Below, in pieces: positions 4,442 to 20,746 of a DNA stretch of 20,746 nucleotides. The notes below the pieces were generated by a model. The model was not told where the DNA came from and made no database searches. It saw only the letters and a list, made by a program, of their open reading frames with translations. The DNA is from a virus: IMG/VR virus record IMGVR_UViG_3300037517_000971, positions 1-20,746 of that record; one strand, written 5' to 3'. How positions within the stretch are numbered: position 1 is the first letter of the stretch; every line of letters starts with the position of its first letter. Made by a program: the position numbers and the translations under genes.

Positions 4442-5857
4442 ATGCCTGACCTCAACGCATCTCTTAGCCGGTTGGGGAGTATTAATGGCGTTCAATATAA
4501 CGCTGGCTCTGCCTCCGGTAACTATGAGCGCGAAAGCGCTAACTTCCTCAAGATTTTCTCTGGCGAAGTTCTGACGACCTTCAACCGTGAGACGATCTTC
4601 AAGGATCTGACCATGAAGCGCACCATCTCTTCGGGCAAGAGCGCAAGCTTCCCGATCACTGGTCGTTTCTCCAGCCGCTACCACCGTCCTGGTGACTTCA
4701 TCACCGGTCAGGGTAACAAAGGCATGATTGGCGAAAAGATCATCACCATTGATGACCTGCTGATCGCTGACGCTTCGATCTATGACCTGGACGAGGCCAA
4801 ACTGCACTGGGACGTTCGTTCGATCTATTCGACCGAGCTTGGCCGCGCTCTGGCTCGGGCTTATGACCAGCGCCTGGCTCGCACCCTGCTGTCTGCTACC
4901 GAGTCTGATGGCCGCATTAAGGATTGGGATTCCAAGCGATTCCAACTGAATGGTGGTACTTACTCCTCTGTGAGCACCAACACCGTTACCCTGAGCGCTA
5001 ACTTCCAAACCTCTGAGCTGACCTTCTGGGCAATCGGTGAGGTTGTGTATGGCGAGAACTCTGGTTCTTATGGTGTGATCACCACCGCTCCTACCAACGG
5101 CGCTGCTACCTTCGACATCAACCCGATTGGTTCGATTGGTACCGGTACTGGTGTTGGCTTCCAAGTGGGCGAGCGTCTGTTCGTTCTGAACCGGATGCCT
5201 GGTGGTACTTCGTTCACCGGTATTGACCTGAACGGTGCTGCTGATCGCAACGCTCGTGGTGACCTGATCGTGGAGAACCTGTTCAAGGCTTGCCAAGCCC
5301 TGGACGAGAAGGATGCTCCTAAGGAAGGCCGTGTGTGCGTCCTGAGCCCTGGTGCTTACTACGACGTGCTGAACAGCGACCGTGCCATCAACACCGACTT
5401 CAACGCTGCTGGCGGTGCTAACGGCTCGATCTACCAGAACCGCGTTGCTTCTGTGGCTGGCTTCCGCCTGCTGACCAGCAACCACCTGGGCATCAACAGC
5501 TACACCTCCAGCCAGACCTACGCTGGCCTGAGCAACCAGGCTGCTACCACCCGTGGTGAGCGTCCTAACTACATCAATGGCCGCGACGGCTCTGATGGTC
5601 AAGCTGCTTCTGGCTACAACGACTATTGGCAGGATGAGCAAGGTAACACCTCCTCCATCGCCAACTGTTTCGGCCTCTGCTTCACCAAGGAAGCTGTGGG
5701 TACTGTGTCCCTGAAGGACGTGTCGATGCAGATGACTGGTTCTGAGTACAAAGCTATGACTCAGAGCACCATGATGGTTGCCAGCTATGCCGTGGGTCAC
5801 GGTGTGCTGCGCCCTGAGTGCGCTGTGAGCCTGCTGCACGACGGCAACCCGTATTGA
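4442..5857 (+). CDS. Major capsid protein (gp10-like) with an extra domain
   Basis: At 471 aa it is about 125 residues longer than T7 gp10A (345 aa). Capsid proteins of this family have the HK97 fold and build the icosahedral head. Clear T7-family landmarks are KIFSGEVLTTF (37-47), RTISSGKSASFPITGR (60-75), EKIITIDDLLIADASIYD (98-115), HWDVRSIYSTELG (122-134), the ASVAGFRLL strand (337-344), EAVGTVSLKD (417-426) and YAVGHGVLRPE (449-459). Residues about 162-265 have no T7 counterpart. They are rich in Thr, Ser, Gly and Val (VSTNTVTLSANF, SGSYGVITTAPTNG, GTGVGFQVGERLFVLN) and look like an inserted beta-rich domain. A second, smaller expansion lies at about 352-405. Codons are strongly biased to C-ending forms (AAC, CTG, ACC), unlike the neighbours, as expected for the most expressed gene. 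No Shine-Dalgarno site precedes the ATG. It is flanked by a promoter candidate and a terminator. Confidence 0.96.
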   Translation: MPDLNASLSRLGSINGVQYNAGSASGNYERESANFLKIFSGEVLTTFNRETIFKDLTMKRTISSGKSASFPITGRFSSRYHRPGDFITGQGNKGMIGEKIITIDDLLIADASIYDLDEAKLHWDVRSIYSTELGRALARAYDQRLARTLLSATESDGRIKDWDSKRFQLNGGTYSSVSTNTVTLSANFQTSELTFWAIGEVVYGENSGSYGVITTAPTNGAATFDINPIGSIGTGTGVGFQVGERLFVLNRMPGGTSFTGIDLNGAADRNARGDLIVENLFKACQALDEKDAPKEGRVCVLSPGAYYDVLNSDRAINTDFNAAGGANGSIYQNRVASVAGFRLLTSNHLGINSYTSSQTYAGLSNQAATTRGERPNYINGRDGSDGQAASGYNDYWQDEQGNTSSIANCFGLCFTKEAVGTVSLKDVSMQMTGSEYKAMTQSTMMVASYAVGHGVLRPECAVSLLHDGNPY

Positions 5858-5877
5858 TTAACTAGCTTCTAGTTAAT
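5857..5877 (+). other. Perfect 9-bp hairpin at the capsid stop codon
   Basis: ATTAACTAG (5857-5865) and CTAGTTAAT (5869-5877) are perfect reverse complements with a CTT loop, beginning on the last base of the capsid stop codon. The stem is AT-rich and not followed by a T-run. It could protect the 3' end of capsid mRNA, be a processing site, or assist the terminator 14 bases downstream. Confidence 0.6.
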
Positions 5878-5890
5878 TACCAATACAATG

Positions 5891-5917
5891 AGGGGAGGCA
5901 AATGCTTCCCCTTTTTT
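5891..5917 (+). terminator. Rho-independent terminator after the capsid gene
   Basis: AGGGGAGGC (5891-5899) pairs with GCTTCCCCT (5904-5912) over 9 bp with one G-U, around an AAAT loop. Six T's (5912-5917) follow. This is a textbook intrinsic terminator. T7 has its only late terminator (T-phi) at the same place, just after gene 10, where partial termination keeps capsid mRNA in excess over tail mRNA. The same role is inferred here. Confidence 0.9.
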
Positions 5918-5927
5918 GTTGCAATAA

Positions 5928-6566
5928 ATGGCGACTAGTAAACTCAGTGCAGTTAACACTCTGCTCGCCATTATTGGTGAAGCACCTATTAACTCTCTAA
6001 ACCCACCACTAACTGGTGACGCTAGTCTTGCAGAGCGCACCTTGGATGAGGTTAGTCGTGAGGTTCAAGGCGCTGGGTGGTCTTGGAACACGATGCTGTA
6101 TGACTCCATTCCTCTGGACGCTTCTACAGGTCAATCCCAGCTTCCTAGCAACACCTTGGCTGTACGGTTTAACCCGCTGTCGTACCCCTCTCAAAGGTTT
6201 GTTCTTCGCGGTCTTCGGCTTTTTGATCGCCTTAAAAACACATATGACCTGAGGGGTAGTCTCAGTATCAGTGTCACTGGTGGTACTAGCGATCTGGTTG
6301 CTGAGATTGTGGAGGAACTGGAGTGGGACAGCCTGCCTGAGACTGCTCGGCGGTACATTATGATCCGTGCTGGTCGGATGTTCTCTAACCGTGCTGTGAC
6401 CTCTGCCAGTATTGAGAGCTATACGGCTGATGATGAAAAGAACGCTTTGCAAACCCTGAAGCGTACTGAGGACATGGCTCAGAACTACAACTACATCAGT
6501 GGTCCTGATGATATGTACGGTGGCCGTGTGGTTACTACTTTTGGTCCCAACATCCTTGATCGCTGA
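5928..6566 (+). CDS. Tail tubular protein A (gp11-like, tail gatekeeper)
   Basis: At 212 aa it is close to T7 gp11 (196 aa). The protein forms the ring that joins the portal to the tail nozzle. Family-typical features are the start SKLSAVNTLLAIIGEAPINSL, the AERTLDEVSREVQGAGWSWNT segment (about 35-55), a central region with LRGLRLFDRLKNTYD, and the LPETARRYIMIRAGRMFSNRAV helix near residue 145. The ATG lies 10 bases after the terminator T-run and has no Shine-Dalgarno site, so expression depends on terminator read-through or an unseen promoter. It is joined to the next gene by TGATG at 6564-6568, which implies coupled translation of the two tail-tube proteins in fixed ratio. Confidence 0.95.
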   Translation: MATSKLSAVNTLLAIIGEAPINSLNPPLTGDASLAERTLDEVSREVQGAGWSWNTMLYDSIPLDASTGQSQLPSNTLAVRFNPLSYPSQRFVLRGLRLFDRLKNTYDLRGSLSISVTGGTSDLVAEIVEELEWDSLPETARRYIMIRAGRMFSNRAVTSASIESYTADDEKNALQTLKRTEDMAQNYNYISGPDDMYGGRVVTTFGPNILDR

Positions 6567-9500
6567 TGTCACGAGAACTTTTTAGCCAAATCATTGGTCC
6601 CCTTAATAAAGGTGTAAACCAACAAGCTGACAGCTTTGTGCTGCCTGGTTTTGCCAAAGTTCTTGAAAACGCTAACTGCGATCTTGTTGAAGGTCTTAAA
6701 AAGCGTCTTGGTTCTGTGCCTGTAAAGCGTATTGATACGCTGACTAAGAACGCTGGAGGATTGACCCTTACCAACCCCATCAAGTGGAATGAGGCCTGGG
6801 TCTTCGTCTACAACCGCAGTAGTGACGAGCGATTTATTCTCATTGTTGCTGACGACAGCCGTACCGTATCTCGTACTGGGAATATTACTAGTGGTTCTGC
6901 TGTGGTGACTTCTGTCAGTTCTATGACAGATTTGTTTGTCGGAGCTGGTGTAACAGGTAGTGGTGTACCTAGCGGAACCAAAATTGTTGATATTGATACT
7001 GCTGGCTCTCGCATCACTCTCAGCAAAAATGCAACTGCTACAACGACTGGAGTAACGCTGACTATTGAATCAAGCTATACGTTTGTTTCTGGCGTCTCCA
7101 ATGTTGAACCTATTAGCGGTATCCTTCCTTCCGTTGTGCCAGTTGAGCAACCTTTTGCCAACATTACCTCCACCAATCTTGGTTACCTCCGTGGATCTGG
7201 TAGGGCTCGTGATCGGTTTAGGGCTACGTCGTTTCAAGATTACGTCTTTGTAACTAACGTTCAAAAAGAAACTTCCTACGACGCAGCAGAGACTCTTACC
7301 AGATACAACGTCAGCAGCATCAGCTCTGTTTACCGTCCTACCAAAGCTCAGGTGTGGGTCAAGTTGGTTGACTATGACACTGAGTATGCAATCACAATTA
7401 CCTTAGATAACAACGACGTTATCAGAGGCCATTACATCAGCCCATCTTTGACTGATGCTGGCGGTGATCCAAACGTTGTTAGTACTGAAACTATTGCTCA
7501 AAAATTAGTAAGTGCAACTCAAACCATTACTGGTTCACTTTCTATTGGCAGCAGCACCGTTAGCAGCGTCACAGCTACAGATATTGATTCAATTGCCGTT
7601 GGTGAGACCGTAAGTGGTACTGGTATTCCTGCAAATACCTTTATTGGATCTATAGGTACTACAAGCTTTACCCTCGTCAACGAAGCTGGTACAGCCGTAA
7701 ACGCCACTGCCAACGGTTCCCATACTCTGACGATTGGCGATGGTCTCGATCAAGGTGACATTCATAACGAACTGACGTTTACCGTCAAAGACTCTCAAAT
7801 CCTCATTGGCCTTACAAACAGCTCTCGTTACTTCAAAAGCTTTGTAGCTCACGACGCACGAGGCAACACGTTGATGTCTGGTTTTACCAATCAGGTCACC
7901 AGCATCACAGAGCTTCCTCCGACTTCTTGGGAAGGCTATACGGTCCTTGTGGCTCCTGATGGGTCTTCAGGTCAAAGCTCGTACTACCTGACGTTTAACG
8001 CTGAGAACACCACAACTAATGGAGACTTCGGTCGTGGTGTGTGGGAAGAGACTGCTGGGTGGGGTGCTAGGGGGCTCCTAGACGACAACACGATGCCTCA
8101 TGCGTTTATCTATTACAGGAACGCTAATGGCCTTACAAGGTTTACGTTCCAGCCCTTTAGCGGCACAGCCTACACCGACAGCACTGTTTCCTTCACGCTG
8201 CCTGGCTGGGGTACTCGATTAGCTGGTGATGAAGAGGAACTACCTGGACCTTCGTTTGTTGACAGCACAATCAACGACCTTGTGTTCTTTAAAAACCGTC
8301 TTGGGTTTGTCAGTGGTGAAAACGTCATCCTGAGTGAGTCTGGAGACTATTACAACTTCTGGCAACAGTCAGCTCTTCAAGTTGTCGACAGCGATCCTAT
8401 TGACCTTACCGCTGTCAGTAACGACGTTGCTGTGTTGAACTACGCGTTGCAGCAGCAGGACGAACTTGTACTGTTCTCCAACGAAAACCAGTTCCGTCTG
8501 TACTCAGGTGACAACGTTACGTTTAGCCCTGAGACAGCCTCTGTGGGTCGTATCAGCTCCATCAGTATGGAGTCGAAGGTAAAGCCTGAACAGGTTGGTC
8601 CTCAAGTACTGTTCCCTGTCAAAGAGGGTGACTTCACTGGTTTCCACACGTTCATTACGACTGACCGTACCGTTGGTATCAACCTAGGTCAGACCGCAGT
8701 GATTACTGAGACGGTCCCTAAGTACATCCCTAAAAACATTGATTCCCTTGCTGTTAGCCGTACAGACCAGTATCTGGTTGCTCTGAGCAAGGACGATCCT
8801 GATTCTCTGTATGTGTACCAGTTCTTCTGGGAAGCTTCTGGTGGCTCTTTGACCAACAGACAGAACGCTTGGCACAAATGGACCTTCCCAAACAAGAGCA
8901 TTTATTGGTGTGATTTTGTTGAGGGCACCCTGTTTAAGCTGGTGAGCTACGTTAACGGTGCTAACACCGAGTATTACCTTGAGGGCGTTAACGCTTCTAG
9001 GCCGCCTCAAGAAAGCGGAGACCTGTTCCTGCTTGACCGTCAGATCTCCAGCTCGATTACCACTGACATTGGTACCGCGAGTTTTAGCTACTCTGCAGCT
9101 ACCAACAAAACAACCGTTACGTTGCCTTACAGGACTGTTAACACCAGTCAGTTTGTAATTATTAAACAGAACAGTGCAAGTGGTTCGGAATCTGAAAAAC
9201 GTTGGATCGTGGCTAACAACGTTCCTGCAGGTGTTACCAGTTTTGTTTGCGACAGCCTTGGTGATTTCTCAAGTAGCTCTTGGGTCTTTGGTGAGAAATT
9301 TACGTTTACTTACCAACCGCCTCAACTTATGCCGTATAGCAGAACAGCGACCGAGAACACTTTTATTGGTAATCGTACTGGTCGTCTTCAGCTGCGATAC
9401 CTGGATATTTATTACAACGATGCAAGGTACTTCACTGTTGAAGTGAGTCCTAAGCACAGGGATACGGTGACCTATGAGTTTGACCGTAGAGACCCTCTAA

Positions 9501-9679
9501 ACGGAAACATCGTTATTAGCGAGGAAGAGCCGTTTGAGGAGGCCAAGTTTAGGGCTTATATCCAAAGCAAGAATGACCAAGTTACAGTGGAGCTAGTGAA
9601 CGACAGCATCGACCAGGCTAAGTTCATAGCTCTTGAATGGACTGGTCTGTACTTTGACGTAGCGAGGAAGTACGGTTAA
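6566..9679 (+). CDS. Tail tubular protein B (gp12-like, tail nozzle) with two inserted beta-domains
   Basis: At 1037 aa it exceeds T7 gp12 (794 aa). Gp12 forms the hexameric nozzle at the end of the tail tube. The start is family-typical (IGPLNKGVNQQADSFVLPG, then VEGLKKRLGS). So are the central NDLVFFKNRLGFVSGENV, LSESGDYYNFW and VSNDVAVLNYALQQQDELVLF segments and the C-terminal GRLQLRYLDIYYNDA and FTVEVSP. The extra length includes two related beta-rich modules, residues 103-167 and 318-390. Each has S-x-x-V-x-S-V, then V-x-G-T/S-G-[VI]-P, then a TLS/TLV strand, and closes in LTI. These resemble modules common in phage tail and fibre proteins and probably decorate the nozzle surface. The ATG overlaps the gp11 stop, and the stop overlaps the next ATG (TAATG at 9677). 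Confidence 0.95.
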   Translation: MSRELFSQIIGPLNKGVNQQADSFVLPGFAKVLENANCDLVEGLKKRLGSVPVKRIDTLTKNAGGLTLTNPIKWNEAWVFVYNRSSDERFILIVADDSRTVSRTGNITSGSAVVTSVSSMTDLFVGAGVTGSGVPSGTKIVDIDTAGSRITLSKNATATTTGVTLTIESSYTFVSGVSNVEPISGILPSVVPVEQPFANITSTNLGYLRGSGRARDRFRATSFQDYVFVTNVQKETSYDAAETLTRYNVSSISSVYRPTKAQVWVKLVDYDTEYAITITLDNNDVIRGHYISPSLTDAGGDPNVVSTETIAQKLVSATQTITGSLSIGSSTVSSVTATDIDSIAVGETVSGTGIPANTFIGSIGTTSFTLVNEAGTAVNATANGSHTLTIGDGLDQGDIHNELTFTVKDSQILIGLTNSSRYFKSFVAHDARGNTLMSGFTNQVTSITELPPTSWEGYTVLVAPDGSSGQSSYYLTFNAENTTTNGDFGRGVWEETAGWGARGLLDDNTMPHAFIYYRNANGLTRFTFQPFSGTAYTDSTVSFTLPGWGTRLAGDEEELPGPSFVDSTINDLVFFKNRLGFVSGENVILSESGDYYNFWQQSALQVVDSDPIDLTAVSNDVAVLNYALQQQDELVLFSNENQFRLYSGDNVTFSPETASVGRISSISMESKVKPEQVGPQVLFPVKEGDFTGFHTFITTDRTVGINLGQTAVITETVPKYIPKNIDSLAVSRTDQYLVALSKDDPDSLYVYQFFWEASGGSLTNRQNAWHKWTFPNKSIYWCDFVEGTLFKLVSYVNGANTEYYLEGVNASRPPQESGDLFLLDRQISSSITTDIGTASFSYSAATNKTTVTLPYRTVNTSQFVIIKQNSASGSESEKRWIVANNVPAGVTSFVCDSLGDFSSSSWVFGEKFTFTYQPPQLMPYSRTATENTFIGNRTGRLQLRYLDIYYNDARYFTVEVSPKHRDTVTYEFDRRDPLNGNIVISEEEPFEEAKFRAYIQSKNDQVTVELVNDSIDQAKFIALEWTGLYFDVARKYG
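6872..7066 (+). repeat. Inserted beta-domain copy 1 in tail tubular protein B
   Basis: Codes for residues 103-167 (RTGNITSGSAVVTSVSS to TGVTLTI). It shares with copy 2 the order G-x-I/L-x-x-G-S-x-x-V-x-S-V, V-G, V-x-G-[ST]-G-[VI]-P, x-[TF]-x-I, a TL strand, A-T-A and a closing LTI. The DNA similarity is low, so the duplication is old or the two copies were gained separately. Confidence 0.6.
7517..7735 (+). repeat. Inserted beta-domain copy 2 in tail tubular protein B
   Basis: Codes for residues 318-390 (TQTITGSLSIGSSTVSSV to GSHTLTI). It follows the same strand order as copy 1, with VSGTGIPANTFIGSI in place of VTGSGVPSGTKIVDI. The two copies are separated by about 150 residues of gp12-type sequence. 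Confidence 0.6.
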
Positions 9680-10569
9680 TGGCTCAGTCTTTTTCAGAGA
9701 TGTTCTTGTCTCCTGGAACGCAAGCTGCGCTTCAGTTTGGTTTGGGCTTGACTTCTACTGCTTACTCAAAAGCAGCTCTAGCTAAGCAAAGTTGGAGCCA
9801 GTGGGAAAGTGAAACGATAAGCGCTATTAGAAGGGCAACTGAAATTGACAAACAAAATTTCAGGTCTTATCAAGTTGACCTTGAGAACTGGTTTAAGCAA
9901 TCTCAATACGTTGAACAGCTAAGGCAGTATGAATCAAAACTGTCTCAGCAAGCTTCTGAGCTTAAAACCTCAACATCAATTTCTGCCCTTAAAAACCTTG
10001 AAAGGCAGTTTGCTGATCTTGATGCCAAGTTTTATGAAGAAGAAGCTGCAGCAACTATTCAGCTAGAGGCCTCAAGAAACAAATCAATTGCAGATGCAGC
10101 TTCCAAAGTAGCAAGTGGTCAGGTAGGTAGAACTGTTCAGCGTATTAGTAATTCATACCACCAACAGTGGCTGCAAAACGCAAGTAACCGTCAAATCACT
10201 AAACAGTTTCGTATTGCAGATAAGTTGTCTGCTATGGATGCAGCAGCTATTGATGCACAGAACAAAACTAATTCTGTAGCTCTTTATAACCCAAGACCTT
10301 ATGCTGATCCGGTTCAACCGCTAGCACCGATCCCAACTGAAACCTATCTTCCTAAAGAACCTAGTGTTTCTGGTGCTCTTAGTATTCTTGATATTGCTAC
10401 TGCTGGTCTTCAGGCAACTCAAAACTATATTGATATGAGACCGCCTCAAATGACGCAGCAAAGGACAACTACCCCAGTTGCTCCTGCAGCTCCAGCGGCC
10501 CCTGCGGCACCGGCTTCTGGTCAAGTCACTACCATTCCAGTTGTTCCTGCTCAACCTACAGCTCAATAA
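9679..10569 (+). CDS. Internal virion (core/ejection) protein, gp14-like
   Basis: At 296 aa it is longer than T7 gp14 (196 aa). In T7, gp14 is the outermost core protein and, after ejection, forms the channel in the outer membrane. The assignment rests on position between gp12 and gp15 and on the pattern of an N-terminal Gly/Ala helix (about 14-36, TQAALQFGLGLTSTAYSKA), long Gln/Glu-rich helices (45-145), and a gp14-like ASKVASGQVGRTVQRI (140-155) followed by a DAQNKTNS segment. Residues about 265-296 form a Pro/Ala linker (VAPAAPAAPAAPAS). A GAGG at 9664-9667 lies 11 bases before the ATG. The start overlaps the gp12 stop (TAATG). No gp13 homologue is coded between gp12 and this gene. Confidence 0.82.
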   Translation: MAQSFSEMFLSPGTQAALQFGLGLTSTAYSKAALAKQSWSQWESETISAIRRATEIDKQNFRSYQVDLENWFKQSQYVEQLRQYESKLSQQASELKTSTSISALKNLERQFADLDAKFYEEEAAATIQLEASRNKSIADAASKVASGQVGRTVQRISNSYHQQWLQNASNRQITKQFRIADKLSAMDAAAIDAQNKTNSVALYNPRPYADPVQPLAPIPTETYLPKEPSVSGALSILDIATAGLQATQNYIDMRPPQMTQQRTTTPVAPAAPAAPAAPASGQVTTIPVVPAQPTAQ

Positions 10570-10572
10570 ATC

Positions 10573-10576
10573 GAGG
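10573..10576 (+). promoter_or_regulatory. Shine-Dalgarno site for the gp15-like gene
   Basis: GAGG lies 6 bases before the ATG at 10583, in the 13-base gap after the gp14-like gene. This is one of the few late genes here with an independent ribosome binding site rather than an overlapping stop/start. Confidence 0.6.
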
Positions 10577-10582
10577 ACTTAA

Positions 10583-13345
10583 ATGACTAGCAGCTTTGGC
10601 ATCCAGCCTCAACGTCAAGTTCGTGACTACTTCCAAGCTCCTGAGCAACAGGCAGCTCCTGCAGCACCTGCATCGCCTGCTGAAACCCCTCAGCGTCGCG
10701 GTGGAGAAACGCTTGATTTTCAACGGTTTCAACCGGATCAAAAGCTGGCTCAGCAAGTCTCAGCTATTGAGAAATTTACAGAAGTAGCAACTGGCATAAG
10801 CAAATCTTTTGTTGAACAAGAAGCAAAGAAACAAGTAGCTCAAGCTTCACGTCTGTTTGATCAGATTGCCCAGTACCAACTGGATACTCTTGAAATTGGT
10901 GAAGCAGCTAAGCAGCTTCGTAAAAAGGGTAAAAACGACCTTGCTGATCAAGTCGCTTCTACAAACCCTTGGTTTCGCTATGGGTGGCTAAAAAGCAAAG
11001 CTGAGTTTGCAGGACAAAAGACTGCGATTAGTACCCAAAATTGGGTCAACGCTAATCTGTCTGATCTTGAACAAATTGAAGATCCTTCAGATGTAACTCG
11101 GCGTATTCAAGATTATTCACAAACCTATTATCAAAAGAATTATCCAGACATTCCAGTTCAGATGTACTCGGGTCTTGTTGCCCCTGTACTGGCTAAGACG
11201 CTTCCAGCAATTAGTGAAGGTATTTTAGAAAAGCATCTTGTTTGGAAGAAAAAGTTTAATGAGCAACGAGGACGTGAAACTCTTGGCAGTGCTACTTCTG
11301 TTTATGCAGCTGTAGCCAATCAAAGCCGTAGAAATCCTCAACAATTAACTGTTGCTAATCAAGCACTGCAAACACAAATTCTTAAAAGCCAAGAAGACCA
11401 CATTAACGCTGGGTTTAGCCGGGCTGATTGGAAAGACAATGTTCTTATTCCTTGGGTTAAAAACCTTTTCATTGATGCAGACGATAACGGTGTAAACGAT
11501 ATTGTCGATAAAAACCTTGAATCTAATTTTAAAAATGCTCTGAATTTTAAGCTTCCTGGACTTGGAGACATTAGCCTCCTTGACCTTCAGGATCCAGAAA
11601 CAGGTCGATCCATTCGAACCCTAATTACGCAGCAACGTAACGCTGGGTTGGAAATGGAAAGCAAGATGGAGAATATTGCTGAACAAAAGCAATTTAGAAA
11701 CAAGCGAGTCTTTCAAGATGCTCTTGACTTCACGCTTGATCGTGAGCTTTCAGGCTTTGATGGTGAAGAGCGTCTTGATCGTCAACAAAGCTTTTACAAC
11801 CGTATTGAGTCTGCAAGGAGAAACGGTGGCTCAATCTCTTTGCTTGTTCAGGACCCAGAAACAGGACAAATCACCAGAAAGGAATTTCAGGTTCCTTACG
11901 GTTTTACCCTACAAGACGCTAGGAAAAGCACTTTTGGCGAAGGGACTCCTGCTGATCCACGGCAGTTTGGACGTGATCAAGAGGCTGTACGGAAGCTGCT
12001 TATCGACAATCCGATGGCAGACATTCCAGATGACATTCAGCGTAGGTACTACCCAGGTAGTTCTGAGTGGAATTGGTTTAATAGCCAAAAGATGCAATCA
12101 CGGACTAACTTCTCTCAAAAGGAATGGGGTCCTGAAATTAGCGATCTTGAAACCAGTGCTGTCGCTGAAGTAACACGCCTTAACCAAGTAGCTATGGCAG
12201 AGGCTCTTCAAGGTGTTGCAGGCGGTAAAGCTCAGGAGGTTATCAAATCTAAGTACAGAAACGCTTTAAGGCTTCAGAAAGATGAAGCAAGGGAATTTGC
12301 TCGTCGTTTTGCTCGCAGTGAAGTTATTAGTGGTTCTTCTGTAAACCTAAATAATCCAAATTATTGGGACACGGTAATCAAAAACCGTATGCTCAAATCA
12401 ATTGGTGGTAACGAGCTGCTTACTGATCCAAGGCAGATGTTTCCAGGTGCTAAGCGTACAGCGGTTCAAGACCCATATATGTCTGTTATTCGCAATCCAA
12501 ATACTGGAGAAGTTGAAACTGCCCAGCGTCTGTTGCCTCCTGAAGACTTCATTAACGCAAACCAAAGATTGCTTAGCAGCGGCAAGCTTCAGTGGTACTG
12601 GGCTAACCAACCAATGATTAGCAACAACAGTGCTTCAAATTTGGCTACTGGTTTGATTAGTCAAAAACAGTTTTCAACTGAAAGCATTAACGATCTTCGG
12701 GATGGCTTTAATCTTGCTAGCCGCATGAAGCCTGGTTTAACTCTTAAACAGTTTTTGGAAGGTCAATTTAATAAGAAGAACTTTGACATTAGGGGAGCTA
12801 ACAACAAGCCTCTTCCAATGAACCCTGCTCGACTTAGAGAGCTTGAAAACAAACTTGCTTCAACTGCCAGCAAACCTAATGGTACCTGTCAAGTTAAATA
12901 CACTGCGGCTGGTTTAGGTCATCACCACAATCCTGGTGCAGTTGATTTTTGGTGTGAAGACAAAAAGACCAGAAGCATGAAGGTGCCGTTTGCTGCTCCA
13001 GTAAAAATGCAAATTATTGAGGTTAACTTTGCTCCTGGCAACTACGGTAACTATTCAAGAGCTCGTGTTCTTGAAAATTATGGTGGTTTGAGAGCTAGAG
13101 ACATCATCAGTATTGGACACGCTAGAGGCTTTGGTAACCTCCAACCTGGTCGTGTGTTGTATCCAGGTGAGCTTTGGGGATACCAACACGATGAGCGGTC
13201 TTATCGCGTAGGAATTGACCAAGCCAATGGCCCAGGAGCTGGTGTCCACCTGGATATTTCCATCAGTCGAAACGGCAGGAGGCTTCCTCAAGCTGAAATG
13301 CGTAAAATATTTTTAAACACCCTTGTAAATCGGCTGTCTCTGTAA
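10583..13345 (+). CDS. Internal virion protein, gp15-like, with C-terminal M23/LytM-like peptidase domain
   Basis: At 920 aa it exceeds T7 gp15 (747 aa). Gp15 forms the middle core ring and, with gp16, spans periplasm and inner membrane during DNA ejection. Residues 20-40 are a Pro/Ala/Gln linker and most of the rest is helical (about 45-760). The last 150 residues read as a LytM/M23 peptidase in family order. They show HHHNPGAVDF (H780-H782, D788), VPFAAPVKMQIIEV, NYGNYSRARV, SIGHARGFGNLQPGRVLYPGELWGY (H846) and GAGVHLDISISRNG (H889, D891). The motif normally reading HxH is HxD here, and the HxxxD motif has two extra residues. M23 enzymes cut peptidoglycan cross-bridges; activity of this one is uncertain, because Asp may or may not replace the zinc-ligand His. 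The start has its own Shine-Dalgarno site, and the stop overlaps the gp16-like start. Confidence 0.85.
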   Translation: MTSSFGIQPQRQVRDYFQAPEQQAAPAAPASPAETPQRRGGETLDFQRFQPDQKLAQQVSAIEKFTEVATGISKSFVEQEAKKQVAQASRLFDQIAQYQLDTLEIGEAAKQLRKKGKNDLADQVASTNPWFRYGWLKSKAEFAGQKTAISTQNWVNANLSDLEQIEDPSDVTRRIQDYSQTYYQKNYPDIPVQMYSGLVAPVLAKTLPAISEGILEKHLVWKKKFNEQRGRETLGSATSVYAAVANQSRRNPQQLTVANQALQTQILKSQEDHINAGFSRADWKDNVLIPWVKNLFIDADDNGVNDIVDKNLESNFKNALNFKLPGLGDISLLDLQDPETGRSIRTLITQQRNAGLEMESKMENIAEQKQFRNKRVFQDALDFTLDRELSGFDGEERLDRQQSFYNRIESARRNGGSISLLVQDPETGQITRKEFQVPYGFTLQDARKSTFGEGTPADPRQFGRDQEAVRKLLIDNPMADIPDDIQRRYYPGSSEWNWFNSQKMQSRTNFSQKEWGPEISDLETSAVAEVTRLNQVAMAEALQGVAGGKAQEVIKSKYRNALRLQKDEAREFARRFARSEVISGSSVNLNNPNYWDTVIKNRMLKSIGGNELLTDPRQMFPGAKRTAVQDPYMSVIRNPNTGEVETAQRLLPPEDFINANQRLLSSGKLQWYWANQPMISNNSASNLATGLISQKQFSTESINDLRDGFNLASRMKPGLTLKQFLEGQFNKKNFDIRGANNKPLPMNPARLRELENKLASTASKPNGTCQVKYTAAGLGHHHNPGAVDFWCEDKKTRSMKVPFAAPVKMQIIEVNFAPGNYGNYSRARVLENYGGLRARDIISIGHARGFGNLQPGRVLYPGELWGYQHDERSYRVGIDQANGPGAGVHLDISISRNGRRLPQAEMRKIFLNTLVNRLSL
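12881..13342 (+). other. M23/LytM-like domain region of the gp15-like protein
   Basis: Codes for residues 767-920. Matches to the M23 scheme are H782/D788 for HxxxD, H846 for the catalytic His of the YAHL-type motif, H889 for the first His of HxH, and D891 in place of the second. An M15 (VanY-like) reading was considered because of G-A-V-D-F, but the following GNY, GH and P-G-E-L-W-G elements fit M23 better. Confidence 0.62.
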
Positions 13346-16300
13346 TGCCTCGTATTATCCTCCCTGATGGCACTGTTAAATACTACGAAACCGAAGAACA
13401 GCTAGAGGAGGAGCTTCAACAGACAAAACCAGCCGCTCCTACTATCACGCAACAAAAACCTGCTCCAGCACAAGCTTCTAAGCCTGCCCCTGCTAAACCA
13501 AAGCAAGATCCTCCTAGCTGGTGGGATGAGACGCTGAGAACCATTAGCACTGCTGCAGTTCAGATTCCTACCAAAGTTGTTCAGGGTGTTCAAGCTCTTG
13601 GACAGGCTCTTCCTCCAAGTGCTCTTGGTACTCCAATGGGCGGTGAACCTTTGGCTGGTCTGTACGTCAAAGGTGCTGGTAAACCTGAACAGATGAAGCA
13701 GGTTGCTCAAAAGGAAGTCCAACTAGCTAAACGTGGTCAGCGTGCTGCTTCCCTTGGTATCAGCATCCCCACTGAAAAAGGTGAGGTTTATAAGCTTGGT
13801 ATCCCTAAGGAAGCACCTGGTGGCTCTTTGCTGTCAGAAGAGGGTGCAAACTTTAAAGCCATTAAACCTCGTACCCCGTTGGGTCAAGGTATTGCAGATG
13901 TTGGTTCTGCAATTGTTATGTCCTTTGCGCTGCCTAACTTTGGTGGTACGCATGGGGCTAATCTTGCAACGCTTCGTAACGTCATCAAACCTGGGTTTAG
14001 TAACTCCCTTCGTGGTGGTCTAGAGATCGCCAAACGAGTTGGTGCAGACCTGCCTCAAGACTTTGTAGAAGAACTGCTGTTCTTTGCTGCTCCTGAGCCC
14101 TCTGAAGACGAACAGCGTCTTGTGGATCAGATGCTGTCTGCCACTGACCCTAAGGTCAAAAAGGCTATGCAGGAGATGCTGCTGGCTGACGATGATGCAA
14201 CCGTTAAGTTTTACAACAAGTGGCTTTTGAACGCCATTGGTAACACGGCTGCTAGCGCTGTTATTCGTGGCAACCTTGCTGTTCTCAACCAAACCCGTAG
14301 GGCAACTGCTGCTGCTCGCATTAAGGGTAAGAAAGTCAATTTAGAAGAAGTTGAAAAGCAAGCAGCTCCTTTGGTCAAAGAAGTTCAAGGTGTTGTTGAT
14401 TCTGATGTAGCTGCTCTGCGTCAACGTCTTGAGATGGACGAGGTTGCAGAACTCAACAGTCAATTCACTTCTACTGTTCGTGGCAACATTGAACTTCTCA
14501 GCAGCCGAGTTCGTGGCCTTAGCCAAGCAGACCTAGCCACTCAAAAGGCTCAAGGTGAAGGCGAGATGGCTGCTACTGAGCTGATCGGTGTTACAGCTAA
14601 AGCAACTGAAGATAGAGCTCAGATTAAGCGGCTGGGAGATCTGATCAAAGCTCGTTCAGTGTCTCTTAAAGAGATGGACAAGCTAGAGGCTCAAAATCCT
14701 GGTTATTTAACTGGTTCTAATAAAGCAAGGTATAACCGTTATCAAAAACAACTCTTTGAATACAAAGATCAACTTGATGCTCTTGGTAAAGGAGTTACAG
14801 AGCGTACTCAAGCCACTGAAGGTTTTACGCAGCAACTTCAAATGTCTGCTGCTCAAGCTGAGTCTTTGGCTGCAGCTCGACGGTCTGGTGTTGATTCCTT
14901 TGTTAATGAACTAGAACCTTGGTTTAACAACCTTGAAACCATCAACAATCGGAGGGCAATGCTTGCTCCTGATATGTCGATGTCGGAAGACCCTTACTAC
15001 CAATCGTATCAACGCATCAAAGAGGCTTACGACAACTACAAACTGTATGGCGGTAAGGAGGCTGCTCAAGGTGCTGACATAGACCCTTCTCAAGAGCAAA
15101 CTCGACTGGCTTTTGAAGCTCGTCTGTTTGACACCATTCAAGAAGAGTTTGATCGCCTTCAAGCAGACGCTGGTGGGGCTGGTCCTATTGAGGTTGACCC
15201 TGCAGCCTATGAAGCCGCTCAAAAGCTTAATGAGGCTCCTGCAGGGGCCACAGAAGAGGCTGTAGAGGCCGCTGAGGCTGTCCCTCCTGCTGAGGCTATG
15301 CCACCCACTGAAGGGGTAAAAGCACCCCCTTCTGGAGTCAAGGAGGCTGGTACTGAGATGCCAGATCCTTGGACTATGAGCACTCAGGTACCTCTAAAAG
15401 TTGATGAGGTAGGAAACGTTGTTGCCGATCCTGACCCTGTTCGTACTCCTGGTATTACAGAGGGTATCCCTCAGAACAAAGACGCTCGTATTCGTCAGGC
15501 TCAAGTTGATCTTGGTATTCGTAACCCTGATCAGGTTGAAGAAATTGTTGATGACATTCAGCGTTTTACCACTGAAGAAGCTGTTGATGATTACGTCCGT
15601 TACAGCAACGAGATTGCTGAAATGGAAGCTCGTAGTCCTGACGGTGTGAGCTACGACTGGGATCGTGATTCCACAAAAGCTCTTGAGCGTGTTGTTGGTA
15701 ACTACGACACTCAAGCAACTCGTAAGCTGGCAATCCTGCAGGCTTTGAAGCGTAAAGGAGGAAAGATCGAAAACTACACTCCAAAAGCTTTAGAGCGTAT
15801 TTACAAAATTGCAGGTAAATATGCCAACGCTGAGAACGACTTTGTTCAGCTTTTGGACATTTTGAATCGAGCTGGTCTTAAGCGTCAAAAGGCTATTAAA
15901 GGCGTTGAAGACGCTCACGTTGAGGTGTTTGCAACTGCCATTGAACTTCAGGTTGGGTCTAACCGGTTGCTCAAGGTTGTTGATGCCATGACGACTCAAG
16001 CAGACGCTCTTAGCCCTGAAGAGATTCAAACCTATCGAGCTATTGCTGCTCAAGAAGGTCTCTTGCTGTATCAATCGGTTGGGGACTTCATGACGCTGCG
16101 TAATCGTGCATCAAGTCTTCTTGCTTCGTTTAAACAAGGGATTCTTGGCAAAGTCCAAGATATGTATCTCAAGGTTTCTCAAAAGAAGAGCAAAGGTTTA
16201 GACGCTGATCAACTGATTGAAAACTATGTAAAAGATATTCAAAGTTTTCAAGCTCAACTGGCAGAGCAAATTTCAGATGATGTAGGTAACTACATTGGTC

Positions 16301-19077
16301 TGCCATCTAACCTCCGTAACGTTGAGGACGTTCTTAACAAATTCAGAGATCCTGATCTCAGCCCAGATGAAGCAGACCTTGCGCTGTTTAACAAAATCAT
16401 TAGCAAGCTGACTGTTGCTGGTGCAAACCCTGAGGCTCTTGGATCTTTGATGATCACTGGAGATGAGATTGTTCAGCGTCAAATGAAAGCTGGTGGTTTG
16501 TCCAACATCAAAACTCAAACCTCGTTCCCTCCTCAAACTGCTATTTACGGTGGTGCTTTTTGGCTTGATGGTTTGACAACCGGAAAGATCAATAAGTTTT
16601 GGAGTTCTATTCCTTGGCTCAAGGATGACGAGGCCACTCAGTTTGCTGTTGGTCAGGAGCGAATTTATCGCACAATGATGGAGCAAGACTTTACTCAAAT
16701 GGCTGGTAACGTAGCCAACTGGGTTTACAAAAGTCGTCAATTTAATCGCAGCATTATTACGGATGCGATTACACCAATTGATAACTCCGGAAAGTTTGAA
16801 GCTGATGTACGGGTAAAAGACCCTATTCGTGAATCTCAAGTTCTTGGAATTTTGAACGATTCAGAAGGCATTAGTGACAAAGGCGTCTTGGGTATGCTCA
16901 AGCGTCGTTTGGGCGAAGAGCAAGTTCAAAAACTTAGGAACCACACTCTTGTGAACTGGTTCCAGTTTCACGATCAGTTCTGGTTGGGTGATGCCTACAA
17001 AGAAATGCCTGACACCGCTATGGGTCGTTATGCAAAGTTCCGCTACGACTTCAGCCCTCAAGGTGCTTTCGATAGATTTTTGCTTCCTCGATTGACCAAA
17101 GACGCTGTAACTCCTTTTGAGTCAAAACTGGCTTCTGGTGAGCGTCTTGGTGGAAGCCTGCCTCTTGCTGCATCTGAGATCAGCACAGAGTTTATTGGTG
17201 GCACTATGGCAAACCTCTACGCTCGTGCAAAGGCTCAAATTGAAGTAGAGGATATGGTGGATGCAGCAGGTCGTCCTATGTATGTCAAAGGCACAGAAGC
17301 TTTTGAATCTGCTGTAGATAAGAAGTATTACGAAGAATACCTTCGTCCTGTTTCTGTTGGTGTTGGGGACAAAGCAGAAGACATTGCCTACGCCGTTGCT
17401 GACCGAGATGCTCAGTATCTTGCCTTGGCAATGGACATGATGATGCCTATGGAGGACGACGCTTGGAAGGCAATGTATGACCGCCTTAAGAGCCGTGGAG
17501 CCGATGGTGACGTTAACTGGTTTACTACGTTCCTGACTCCTTATATCAAAACCCCTCTTAATGCCCATAAACACCACTTCTATTACACGCAACCCCTTCC
17601 TGGAACTCCTGTTCCTACAGGCATAGCTCTTGAAGCTGGTGTTGGTCTTCGCCGTTTCCTAGACAAGAACCCTGACTCCGACAAACTGGCAACAAGCATT
17701 TTGGGATTCCAAAGCAAGTTGTTCAGTAAGGATCCTGCAACCAGGGCTCGTGCTCGTTCTGGTCTGACTCTTTCTACGGCAATGAACGTTGGTGTTCTGT
17801 CTCTTGTAGAAAGCAATGCTCTTGAAATTACTGGCGGTCAACGAGATCAGTATCAAGAAGCCAATGGTGCTTACATCCCGATGTACAGCATCAAGATTGG
17901 AGGTCAGTGGGTTCCTTATCGTTGGCTGCCTTATGTGGGAGAACTACTGGCTTATGCGGCTAATTTCAGGGACTTCCGTAAAAGCGCTACAGATTCTGAT
18001 GTAACTAGGGTTGTTGGTTCAGCAATTATGGCGATGGGAGCCACTTTGATGGATACTCCTGCTCTTGCTGGTATTGATACTGCTATTTCAATCCTGCAAA
18101 AGCCTAAAGATGCTGAATACTTCATCCTTGATTTTGCAGAACGAGTCGGTGGTGTTAGGTTCCCTGGCCTCCGTCAAGGCATCTTAAGGGCTACTAACGA
18201 GGCTTATGGTGCTCGCCCTGTCCTCTCTGGTGAAGCTGCTGGTGTTGTATCAGTTAAAGAACCAGATCCCCGTCTTGGTGAAGAGGTTTCTTATTGGGAA
18301 CAGTGGGGTGAAGGCGTTAAGGATGTAATGAACATTGGTAAGTTCCTTGCTCAGGGTGGTGCGCTGCTTGCTAACCGTCTTGGTCTCCTTCCTTTTGCTG
18401 AGGGCATGGATTCTTTCTTGTCTGATGCCCGAATCAAAGCCGTCAAGCAAGGTGATTATCGCCAAGCGCATTGGTACAAATCTGGTGACATTATGTACAC
18501 CGGTCCTACTCAAGCCAGTGTGATGACCACCTTCTTGGGTCGCCATTGGCCTGTTCCTAACGCTTCTGATGCTGTTGATATGGAACTGTTCCGCCACGGT
18601 ATTAAACCGCCTGGTCAGGTGTTCCAAGCCAAATATGGAATTATGGCTAACGACGTAATGATTAACCGTTTCCGTAGGTTTATGGGAACTGAGTATCGAG
18701 ATGAAAAAGGTCGTTCTGTTTACCAAGCTTTTAACGATCTGATTCAAAACCGAGAGGCTATTCCTGGAACCAATAATGTTTATTACAAAGACCTTATTGA
18801 TGACCCTAAAAACTCTTTAACGCTTGATGCAAAACAAGCTCCTTACGTTGACACAACTGATCAAGTTACCAAGCGTATGGCTCTTATGGAACTTAGAAGC
18901 ACAATGATTCGTGACGCTGCTGAGCAATTCCTTAACAACGGAATCGAGGTTGTTGATGAGGCAGGTAGAGTAACTGTAAAGCCTATTACTTATGGTGCCC
19001 CTATAGATGCTCAAAAGGCATTTCAAAGGTATTCAAAGGCTAAAACAGAACAAGAAATCCTGAAGCTGGTTTACTAA
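13345..19077 (+). CDS. Giant internal virion (core/ejection) protein, gp16-like
   Basis: At 1910 aa it is far larger than T7 gp16 (1318 aa). Gp16 forms the innermost core ring, is ejected first and threads through the inner membrane to pull in DNA. Position after gp15, size and the C-terminal half give the assignment. That half includes RYDFSPQGAFDRFLLPRL, FLTPYIKTPLNAHKHHFYY (about 1395-1413), ASILQ-type amphipathic helices and VVGSAIMAMGATLMDTPALAG (about 1556-1576). The N-terminus (PRIILPDGTVKYYETEEQL) is not the T7 transglycosylase domain; no lysozyme-like Glu motif is evident. Residues 28-55 are a Pro/Ala/Lys linker, about 330-560 long charged helices, and about 629-700 a Pro/Glu/Ala-rich disordered stretch. 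Start and stop both lie in TAATG overlaps. Confidence 0.85.
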   Translation: MPRIILPDGTVKYYETEEQLEEELQQTKPAAPTITQQKPAPAQASKPAPAKPKQDPPSWWDETLRTISTAAVQIPTKVVQGVQALGQALPPSALGTPMGGEPLAGLYVKGAGKPEQMKQVAQKEVQLAKRGQRAASLGISIPTEKGEVYKLGIPKEAPGGSLLSEEGANFKAIKPRTPLGQGIADVGSAIVMSFALPNFGGTHGANLATLRNVIKPGFSNSLRGGLEIAKRVGADLPQDFVEELLFFAAPEPSEDEQRLVDQMLSATDPKVKKAMQEMLLADDDATVKFYNKWLLNAIGNTAASAVIRGNLAVLNQTRRATAAARIKGKKVNLEEVEKQAAPLVKEVQGVVDSDVAALRQRLEMDEVAELNSQFTSTVRGNIELLSSRVRGLSQADLATQKAQGEGEMAATELIGVTAKATEDRAQIKRLGDLIKARSVSLKEMDKLEAQNPGYLTGSNKARYNRYQKQLFEYKDQLDALGKGVTERTQATEGFTQQLQMSAAQAESLAAARRSGVDSFVNELEPWFNNLETINNRRAMLAPDMSMSEDPYYQSYQRIKEAYDNYKLYGGKEAAQGADIDPSQEQTRLAFEARLFDTIQEEFDRLQADAGGAGPIEVDPAAYEAAQKLNEAPAGATEEAVEAAEAVPPAEAMPPTEGVKAPPSGVKEAGTEMPDPWTMSTQVPLKVDEVGNVVADPDPVRTPGITEGIPQNKDARIRQAQVDLGIRNPDQVEEIVDDIQRFTTEEAVDDYVRYSNEIAEMEARSPDGVSYDWDRDSTKALERVVGNYDTQATRKLAILQALKRKGGKIENYTPKALERIYKIAGKYANAENDFVQLLDILNRAGLKRQKAIKGVEDAHVEVFATAIELQVGSNRLLKVVDAMTTQADALSPEEIQTYRAIAAQEGLLLYQSVGDFMTLRNRASSLLASFKQGILGKVQDMYLKVSQKKSKGLDADQLIENYVKDIQSFQAQLAEQISDDVGNYIGLPSNLRNVEDVLNKFRDPDLSPDEADLALFNKIISKLTVAGANPEALGSLMITGDEIVQRQMKAGGLSNIKTQTSFPPQTAIYGGAFWLDGLTTGKINKFWSSIPWLKDDEATQFAVGQERIYRTMMEQDFTQMAGNVANWVYKSRQFNRSIITDAITPIDNSGKFEADVRVKDPIRESQVLGILNDSEGISDKGVLGMLKRRLGEEQVQKLRNHTLVNWFQFHDQFWLGDAYKEMPDTAMGRYAKFRYDFSPQGAFDRFLLPRLTKDAVTPFESKLASGERLGGSLPLAASEISTEFIGGTMANLYARAKAQIEVEDMVDAAGRPMYVKGTEAFESAVDKKYYEEYLRPVSVGVGDKAEDIAYAVADRDAQYLALAMDMMMPMEDDAWKAMYDRLKSRGADGDVNWFTTFLTPYIKTPLNAHKHHFYYTQPLPGTPVPTGIALEAGVGLRRFLDKNPDSDKLATSILGFQSKLFSKDPATRARARSGLTLSTAMNVGVLSLVESNALEITGGQRDQYQEANGAYIPMYSIKIGGQWVPYRWLPYVGELLAYAANFRDFRKSATDSDVTRVVGSAIMAMGATLMDTPALAGIDTAISILQKPKDAEYFILDFAERVGGVRFPGLRQGILRATNEAYGARPVLSGEAAGVVSVKEPDPRLGEEVSYWEQWGEGVKDVMNIGKFLAQGGALLANRLGLLPFAEGMDSFLSDARIKAVKQGDYRQAHWYKSGDIMYTGPTQASVMTTFLGRHWPVPNASDAVDMELFRHGIKPPGQVFQAKYGIMANDVMINRFRRFMGTEYRDEKGRSVYQAFNDLIQNREAIPGTNNVYYKDLIDDPKNSLTLDAKQAPYVDTTDQVTKRMALMELRSTMIRDAAEQFLNNGIEVVDEAGRVTVKPITYGAPIDAQKAFQRYSKAKTEQEILKLVY

Positions 19078-20639
19078 TGGCTTACGCATCAATTACTTAC
19101 ACCAGTGCTTCTGGTACCACTTTTGCTCTTACCAACAGCAACGGTGATCCAATTGAATACTTGCGTCAAGCTGATATTGCTGTTTATGTAAACGGTACTC
19201 TTAAAACTCAAGGTACTGATTACACGTTTAACAGCGCTGGAACTTCAATTGTTTTGGGTACTGCTGTTAGCGGTGCAACTGTTCTTATTCAAAGAACCAC
19301 TGGCATTGAAGATAACGTTGTAACTTACACTCCAGGTTCAACGTTAACAGCAGCAGATCTTAATAATGCTTCTAACCAAAACCTATACGCCCTTCAAGAG
19401 TTCCGAGATACTTACGGAGCTCTTCTTGGTGGTAGCGGTGATTTAAGCGATCAAGCTTCCATTATTGGTTCTGGTGAAACTTGGTCTTCTAATAACTCTC
19501 AATGGGCTACTACGGCTGCTACTGATAATCGTATCGATAGCAAAATTGATACGGCTCTGACCACTGATGTGGTTGCTGGTACTGACATCAGCATTACTGA
19601 CAACAGTCCTAGTAGTGGTCAAATCACAATTAACCACAACGTAGCTGGAGCTAACACCACTGTTAATAACAGCAACGGTACTGTTCTTCAGGACATTACT
19701 GTTACTGCTCAGGGTCACGTTACTTCTGTTGGGTCTTATGACCTTGATAACCGTTATTACACAGAAGCTGAGCTTGATGCTGGTCAACTTGATAACCGTT
19801 ATTACACGGAAACAGAAGCTGATAATCGTTTTGTAAACGTTACTGGTGCTGAATCTATTGATGGCGTTAAAACGTTTACTAGCAGCCCAATTGTTCCTAC
19901 ACCAACAACTGATTACCAAGCTGCTACCAAAGTTTATGTAGATGCTAATTTTTGGAACAAAACTTCAGAGACAATTGATGGCACAGAGTCGTGGGTAAGC
20001 AATAACACCACTGTTCCTACCACTCAAGCTGTTAACGGTCGAATCATTGATCTGCTTAACGACATTGGTTCTTACGTTGTTGTAGCTACTGAAATTACGT
20101 TCCCTAATGATGGTGTTGTAGACGGTGGTGGTTCTCCTGATGCTGGTGTTCTTGTTGAAGTTACAGATGCTTCTGGACTAACTTGGAACGGTTCTGGTAC
20201 CTCTACAAACGCCACAACCAGCAACTCAACAGCTGTAACCATTACTGGTATTACTGGTACCGGTCCTCTTAACTCCGGTGGTATGCAGGTGCTGTCCACA
20301 AGCACTCTTCATACTTACACGTTTGTTAAATGGACCCTTACCTCCAGTGTTGCTCAGACTATTTCTGACAACATCACTGAAATTCTTCAAGCTGATGATA
20401 ACGCTGCTGCTGCGGCTGCTTCGGCTTCTGCTGCGGCTACTAGTGCCTCTAACGCGGCTACTAGTGCCTCTAACGCAGCTACAAGCGCTTCTAACGCTGC
20501 TACGTCTGCCACTAACGCAGCTAACAGTGCAACCACCGCTCAAAGCACAGTATCTACTCTTTTGACTCTTGGTTATTTGGCTAACTGGGGTCTTATTACT
20601 GATGCTGTAGGCACCTCTTCTGATTACGGTAGTCTTTAA
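19077..20639 (+). CDS. Tail fibre protein with T7 gp17-type N-terminal domain
   Basis: The 520-aa protein begins with the phage T7 tail-fibre N-terminal domain that anchors fibres to the tail. This runs over residues 1-120: YTSASGTTFALTN, EYLRQADIAVYVNG, GTDYTFNSAGTSIVL, VLIQRTTGIEDNVVTYTPGS, LTAADLNNASNQ, LYALQEFRD. After it come a beta-rich shaft (150-220), two 15-residue repeats containing LDNRYYTE (223-230 and 238-245), a GVKTFTSSPIVPTPT segment with QAATKVYVD, a second beta region (335-425) and an Ala/Ser/Asn coiled-coil-like repeat (443-486). It ends shortly after (GLITDAVGTSSDYGSL) without an obvious receptor-binding or chaperone domain. It is therefore probably an adaptor that carries another fibre protein, perhaps the next gene's product. 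The start overlaps the gp16-like stop. Confidence 0.93.
   Translation: MAYASITYTSASGTTFALTNSNGDPIEYLRQADIAVYVNGTLKTQGTDYTFNSAGTSIVLGTAVSGATVLIQRTTGIEDNVVTYTPGSTLTAADLNNASNQNLYALQEFRDTYGALLGGSGDLSDQASIIGSGETWSSNNSQWATTAATDNRIDSKIDTALTTDVVAGTDISITDNSPSSGQITINHNVAGANTTVNNSNGTVLQDITVTAQGHVTSVGSYDLDNRYYTEAELDAGQLDNRYYTETEADNRFVNVTGAESIDGVKTFTSSPIVPTPTTDYQAATKVYVDANFWNKTSETIDGTESWVSNNTTVPTTQAVNGRIIDLLNDIGSYVVVATEITFPNDGVVDGGGSPDAGVLVEVTDASGLTWNGSGTSTNATTSNSTAVTITGITGTGPLNSGGMQVLSTSTLHTYTFVKWTLTSSVAQTISDNITEILQADDNAAAAAASASAAATSASNAATSASNAATSASNAATSATNAANSATTAQSTVSTLLTLGYLANWGLITDAVGTSSDYGSL
19743..19807 (+). repeat. Tandem 45-bp fibre repeat (LDNRYYTE)
   Basis: A 20-base sequence starting CTTGATAACCG occurs identically at 19743-19762 and 19788-19807, 45 bases apart. 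It codes for two 15-residue fibre repeats. LDNRYYT-type repeats are common in trimeric phage fibre shafts. Confidence 0.8.
20433..20516 (+). repeat. Four 21-bp tandem repeats coding for AATSASN heptads
   Basis: The units start at 20433, 20454, 20475 and 20496. The first two are identical in DNA; the third and fourth diverge at the DNA level, and the fourth reads AATSATN. They encode seven-residue Ala/Ser/Thr/Asn repeats near the fibre C-terminus, likely a thin helical or coiled stalk. Recent unit duplication by slippage is indicated by the identical pair. Confidence 0.85.
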
Positions 20640-20641
20640 TT

Positions 20642-20648
20642 AAAGGAG
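20642..20648 (+). promoter_or_regulatory. Strong Shine-Dalgarno site for the last gene
   Basis: AAAGGAG lies 10 bases before the ATG at 20659. It is the best ribosome binding site in the window and supports that start. It overlaps a TTAATTAA palindrome (20636-20643) at the fibre stop codon. Confidence 0.75.
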
Positions 20649-20658
20649 CTTTTTGCTA

Positions 20659-20746
20659 ATGTCCACTCAAATTCAGCGCCGTCGCGGTACTACTGTTCAG
20701 CACAGTTCTTTTACTGGTGCTGCTGGTGAAACGACTATTGATACTG
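20659..20746 (+). CDS. Start of a fibre-like / receptor-binding protein (truncated by window edge)
   Basis: Only 29 codons are visible, starting MSTQIQRRRGTTVQHSSFTG and continuing AAGETTIDT. The pattern RRGT-T-x-x-H, then F-x-G-A-x-G-E-x-x-[IV]-D-T is typical of the N-terminal beta-module of many phage tail-fibre and tropism proteins. That module resembles the N-terminal domain of the Bordetella phage major tropism determinant and is also common in cyanophages. It follows the tail-fibre gene by 19 bases and has a strong Shine-Dalgarno site. The likely role is a distal fibre or host-recognition protein; the rest lies beyond the window. Confidence 0.7.
   Translation, partial: MSTQIQRRRGTTVQHSSFTGAAGETTIDT

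Follow-up and report, generated by a model that had tools for sequence, protein, structure and literature searches.

The 920-amino acid core protein encoded in the window (the whole stretch of viral DNA analyzed here, 20,746 nucleotides) ends in a domain that is a true, divergent homologue of the M23/LytM peptidases, and the M23 homology is settled. Profile and fold evidence agree on an M23/LytM fold with a degenerate active site, carried C-terminally by a gp15-like core protein, as the initial annotation had proposed from sequence motifs. We favor, by a modest degree, the explanation that the domain is a former M23 endopeptidase that is devoid of canonical catalysis and has been kept as a putative part of the DNA-ejection tunnel with a wall-docking or structural function. 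Cyanopodovirus core proteins with an M23 domain are already known (PDB code 9k2v and Pf-WMP4); new are the presence and the decay of such a domain in the marine P-RSP2-like clade, where it was previously unannotated.

The window is a linear cyanopodovirus fragment with T7-like gene order (Table 1), and its virus is a P-RSP2-like marine cyanopodovirus. P-RSP2 represents an outlier clade among the marine cyanopodoviruses that accounts for 2.6–3.9% of their reads (PMC9860041). The succession of tail tube B, gp14-like, gp15-like, and gp16-like proteins and tail fiber puts the 920-residue protein at the position of a gp15-like ejection protein. An AlphaFold model of the full-length protein (mean pLDDT 67, pTM 0.29) matched the T7 core (9jyy_G, rank 2, E 2.3e-3) and the A4 pre-ejectosome (9k2v_A, rank 3, E 2.4e-3) in Foldseek, and the PhiM1 ejectosome (8vb2_E, Z 8.0) and the T7 ejectosome tunnel (7k5c_A, Z 7.6, residues 97–360) in VIA, scores that are modest for helical proteins. 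When the helical body was compared by sequence with the core proteins of T7, P-SSP7, or A-4L type, no similarity emerged, and hhalign of the protein against T7 gp15 gave a P of 0.39; gp15 homologues normally diverge in sequence and have mostly been assigned by size and synteny (PMC8954989). Taken together, the model matches and the gene order support the assignment as a gp15-like tunnel protein, whose presence in the virion and ejection are predicted.

Table 1. Features of the window, with the residues of the 920-amino acid core protein to which they correspond
Feature	Position	Strand	Basis
Ribonucleotide reductase beta fragment	window		
Portal	window		PF12236, E 3e-82
Scaffold and capsid	window		gene positions
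Tail tube A and tail tube B	window		PHROG 457
T7-type tail fiber	window		PF03906
296-aa protein at the T7 gene 14 position	9679..10569	+	synteny only; upstream of the 920-aa gene
Gene of the 920-aa gp15-equivalent core (ejection) protein	10583..13345	+	open frame, gene order, full-length model matches
Helical gp15-like body, residues ~53–760	10739..12862	+	secondary structure of full-length model; VIA matches, residues 97–360
M23/LytM-fold domain, residues ~764–913	12872..13321	+	hhalign P 1.5e-7 with controls; Foldseek and VIA matches
First metal motif region, H780-H781-H782-N-P-G-A-V-D788	12920..12946	+	alignments; loop pLDDT <50
Strand pair VPFAAPVKMQIIEV (801–814), counterpart of M23 'tPVyAp.dGtV'	12983..13024	+	model and profile alignment
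H846, aligned with the catalytic 'YAHL' His and found in every family member	13118..13120	+	alignments
H869, found in every family member, in the loop that follows PG.(L/V)WG; no canonical M23 counterpart	13187..13189	+	family alignment
H889-L-D891 in place of HxH	13247..13255	+	family alignment and hhalign
C-terminal helix, residues 903–918	13289..13336	+	full-length model
1910-aa protein at the T7 gene 16 position	13345..19077	+	downstream of the 920-aa gene

The window sequence alone, searched against Pfam, PHROGs, NCBIfam, and PDB, gave no M23 match, and a six-frame search with PF01551 gave none either, whether on the window record or on the contigs of the family. Among the relatives described below, only the protein of one IMG/VR contig (L008) yielded a weak PF01551 match by itself (E 0.03). 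Because the window sequence alone gave no M23 match, we aligned the last ∼206 residues of five sequences and set this alignment against an M23 profile made from 84 sequences, of which 79 came from viral contigs. hhalign returned a probability of 93.9% (P 1.5e-7) and a score of 48.7, to be compared with a maximum of 24.7 (mean 13) for 200 column shuffles, 10.5 for the reversed alignment, and 9.6 to 18.1 for segments taken from other parts of the protein. When seven syntenic M23 domains from freshwater cyanophages were added to the target, the probability rose to up to 95.2% (P 2.9e-8), and the match reached into the first half of the domain.

The predicted fold leads to the same assignment. An AlphaFold model of residues 715–920 shows core blocks with pLDDT values of about 80–94 and some loops below 50. 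The first eight Foldseek matches of this model are all M23 proteins (best E 1.7e-3), and VIA superposes it with LytU (Z 10.3), LytM (Z 9.5), and lysostaphin (Z 9.1) over 109–123 residues, as well as with the cyanophage A4 pre-ejectosome (Z 7.8). EnvC and DipM are matched alongside these active M23 enzymes. Profile and structure searches thus bear out the initial annotation, which had placed the domain at 12881–13342 (residues 767–920) on the basis of its motifs; all of the motifs that it named are present, and in order, in the translation.

In M23/LytM peptidases, the zinc ion is held by a His/Asp/His triad, and the other two histidines of the site are catalytic. Further motifs of the window domain are F803-A-A-P-V-K808, G819-N-Y-G-N-Y824, I-G-H846-A-R-G, P861-G-E-L-W-G866, and G-V-H889-L-D891-I-S-I-S-R-N-G. 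With the syntenic cyanophage M23 sequences added, hhalign aligns D788 with the zinc-ligand aspartate. The position of the ligand histidine (−4 from D788) is occupied by P784, and H780–H782 lie just upstream; the HxxxD motif with two extra residues, as first described, corresponds to an H782 that is two residues out of register. At the other end of the site, the profile alignment puts H889 at the first histidine of HxH and D891 in the place of the third zinc ligand. The ligand positions of the window domain accordingly read P784/D788/D891, without the complete triad of an active M23 zinc peptidase, and the two catalytic-type histidines, that of YAHL and the first of HxH, are present as H846 and H889.

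A global profile alignment offered an alternative register in which the M23 'DxAAP' motif falls on residues 801–806; this register holds no ligand and was set aside. We prefer the D788 register because D788 was aligned locally, and with a better score, once the syntenic M23 sequences had been added and because the strand order of the model (787–793, 802–804, and 809–814) fits LytM. In either register, the full triad is absent.

The annotated phage collection contained one relative, Prochlorococcus phage P-RSP2, whose two large core proteins show 35–41% identity to those of the window. Scans of IMG/VR that used just the window protein as the query retrieved only an overlapping contig of the same genome. 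Contig 3300044733_001400 matches the window base for base across the 15.4 kb that they share (window 5319–20746) and was therefore treated as the same virus and not as an independent relative. With a P-RSP2 alignment as the query, the full-length core protein was reached in four further IMG/VR contigs, namely L005 (45% identity) and the P-RSP2-like L006, L007, and L008 (37%). Two scans of genome contigs found no relative, and a last viral scan with the gp16-like alignment as the query found no new lineage.

Comparison of these proteins demonstrates that the metal site differs from lineage to lineage. The window has PGAVD and HLD (ligand positions P/D/D), L005 has DGAID and HLH (D/D/H), and P-RSP2, L006, L007, and L008 have NSGIS and HLF (N/S/F), so that a complete His/Asp/His triad in standard spacing occurs in none of the three independent lineages of the family. 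The HxD motif reported by the initial annotation is real in the window (H889-L-D891), but it is not fixed, because the corresponding residues are HLH in one contig and HLF in the other relatives. An aspartate-tuned zinc site, as had been suggested, is therefore not a property of the family. H846, H869, and H889, on the other hand, are invariant in all family members, even in the lineage devoid of the three standard ligands, although this invariance by itself is weak functional evidence, because, with so few lineages, about one-third of the domain columns show no variation.

The domain without ligands nevertheless appears to be under constraint. The domains of L007 and L008 differ at 37 nucleotides versus 13 amino acids (dN 0.039, dS 0.23, dN/dS 0.17), which indicates purifying selection in this one pair, and the reading frame is uninterrupted in every full-length IMG/VR relative. 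Both observations argue that the domain is kept for a role that does not involve zinc.

The P-RSP2 homologue, PRRG_00027 (HQ332139), is full-length with about 36% identity to the window protein and, unlike it, lacks all three zinc ligands (NSGIS ... HLF). Its annotated gene (844 amino acids) ends inside the M23-like domain, and the remainder, up to 925 amino acids, lies in the −1 frame (L002:21084-21120). The A-run at this site has six A in P-RSP2 versus seven A and an open frame in the near-identical contig L008. A AAA AAG is a known slippery heptamer, and the P-RSP2 run could reflect a natural frameshift, recoding, or one base left out of the record. A programmed −1 frameshift is less likely and a missing base is the simpler explanation, because L008 has the seventh A and an open frame. 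The P-RSP2 record, in which the annotated gene terminates mid-domain, can be corrected on this basis.

The counterparts of the window protein in freshwater cyanophages, mostly Saffermanviridae, present a different picture. All seven of their syntenic core proteins possess the intact M23 set (HxxxD, catalytic His, and HxH), so the notion that an M23 domain in a podovirus core protein would be new does not hold. ORF28 of Anabaena phage A-4L (1058 amino acids, same gene position) contains a canonical M23 domain (PF01551, E 1.3e-21) and is the "Internal protein" chain of the solved structure 9k2v from phage A4. ORF33 of Pf-WMP4 is annotated as "internal protein with peptidase domain," and an M23-bearing core protein is likewise found in LPP-1 (g30), PP, TR020, CHP58, and Lbo240-yong1. 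Like the window protein, the freshwater proteins follow tail tube B and a ∼300–400-amino acid protein and consist of a helical body and a subsequent M23-fold domain, and the M23 parts align by profile. We found no sequence similarity between the bodies. The freshwater domains keep all metal and catalytic residues (seven of seven), whereas the zinc triad of the window domain is incomplete; moreover, the freshwater M23 domain is followed by a transglycosylase-like stretch, whereas the window protein ends after the domain.

Podoviruses cross the peptidoglycan with proteins carried in the head. According to the explanation that we favor, the ancestor would have had an active M23 domain like that of the syntenic freshwater core proteins, canonical catalysis would have been lost in the marine clade, and the fold and its groove would have been retained. 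During DNA ejection, the domain would leave the head together with gp15 and, without catalysis, serve as a wall-binding or structural module that docks on, or spaces, the peptidoglycan surrounding the periplasmic tunnel. The domain thus probably grips the wall rather than cutting it, which we infer because the metal site has decayed, and has done so differently in each related virus. This explanation rests on three independent lineages, in which the ligand positions vary freely, whereas all seven freshwater domains keep all five residues. Against it, the window retains D788, three nearby upstream histidines, and D891 as a possible ligand, so that, judging from its residues, the domain could still bind metal; in addition, the catalytic-type H846 and H889 are invariant.

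A further consideration concerns the source of wall-cutting activity. T7 gp15 shares gene order and a gp15-like helical fold with the window protein but lacks an M23-like domain (hhalign P 0.36), as the initial annotation had held. The wall enzyme of T7 is a transglycosylase at the N terminus of gp16, which we did not recognize in the gp16-like protein of the window. In T7, gp15 and gp16 leave the head and form the periplasmic tunnel (PMC8954989). A search for a wall-cutting domain in the window core proteins, including the 1910-residue gp16-like protein, recognized none, which is weak evidence; with no other such domain recognized, something may still need to cut.

The domain might be an active variant, a metal-dependent endopeptidase that opens the wall with one of H780–H782, D788, and D891 as ligands and H846 and H889 as catalytic residues. 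H846, H889, and D788 are kept, zinc can be bound by aspartate, all canonical residues are present in the syntenic freshwater domains, and the transglycosylase was not recognized in the gp16-like protein. LytM, LytU, and lysostaphin share the fold (Z 9–10) and the positions of H846, H889, and D788 with the window domain, which differs from them in that its third ligand is an aspartate (D891), its first histidine is two residues out of register, and PF01551 does not recognize it. Given that HxD is limited to one lineage, that the closest relative, with HLH, has an aspartate at the first histidine position, that the P-RSP2-like relatives lack all three ligands, and that the histidine spacing is off by two residues, we consider an active variant unlikely; the domain might be active with an Asp ligand, although this lacks support.

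We regard as improbable a metal site of a rebuilt kind, made either of H780–H782/D788/D891 in the window (His-Asp-Asp) or of a relocated three-histidine set, H846/H869/H889. If true, a virus ejection protein would carry an M23-fold enzyme, or a module that binds the wall in a metal-dependent manner, with non-standard ligands.

Cells are known to have catalytically dead LytM domains, as in EnvC and DipM. The window domain, with a LytM fold and an incomplete zinc site, resembles EnvC, NlpD, and DipM in these respects, and it could, like them, activate or recruit a host autolysin (e.g. an AmiC-type amidase) that would open the wall. Degenerate cellular LytM domains work in this manner, and the LytM domain of DipM, which keeps one of three metal ligands, docks partners in its degenerate groove (PMC10336132). 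EnvC and DipM are among the matches of the model, along with active enzymes; such fold matches, however, do not distinguish dead from active M23 proteins. Moreover, EnvC, NlpD, and DipM are cellular division regulators, secreted or anchored, that enter the periplasm via secretion and not by injection, whereas the window domain belongs to an ejection protein of the virion and has no known partner. We give this mimicry of a LytM factor little weight.

Still less probable is a purely structural tail piece that aids the assembly of gp15 in the core or tunnel and never contacts the wall. The C-terminal position of the domain and the poor conservation of its groove ligands would be in line with such a role, as would the C-terminal region of T7 gp15, which moves most on ejection and contacts gp16 (PMC8954989), but H846, H869, and H889 are invariant and the syntenic freshwater domains retain their catalytic residues. 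That the domain resembles M23 proteins merely by chance is hardly credible, since the failure of single-sequence searches is outweighed by profile–profile and fold evidence with controls and by the weak PF01551 match of L008.

The same position of the ejection machine is occupied by a canonical M23 domain in freshwater cyanophages and by an eroded one in a clade of marine picocyanobacterial viruses. This contrast makes it possible to test directly whether DNA entry requires gp15-type proteins to cut the wall or whether wall binding suffices.

Three minor observations concern related proteins. Beyond its M23 domain, A-4L ORF28 (L019:25321-28497) has a region (residues ∼845–975) with a weak match to the transglycosylase region at the N terminus of T7 gp16 (hhalign P 0.0018) and also to PHROGs for baseplate hubs; by such alignments, wall enzymes seem to move between the gp15 and gp16 positions. 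In Leptolyngbya phage Lbo240-yong1, the M23-bearing core protein is encoded by an unannotated open frame of about 1010 codons (L108:2204-5269). Finally, PDB code 9m7n_A ("Gp16," 915 amino acids) is a solved phage-like protein with a C-terminal M23 domain at residues 795–901.
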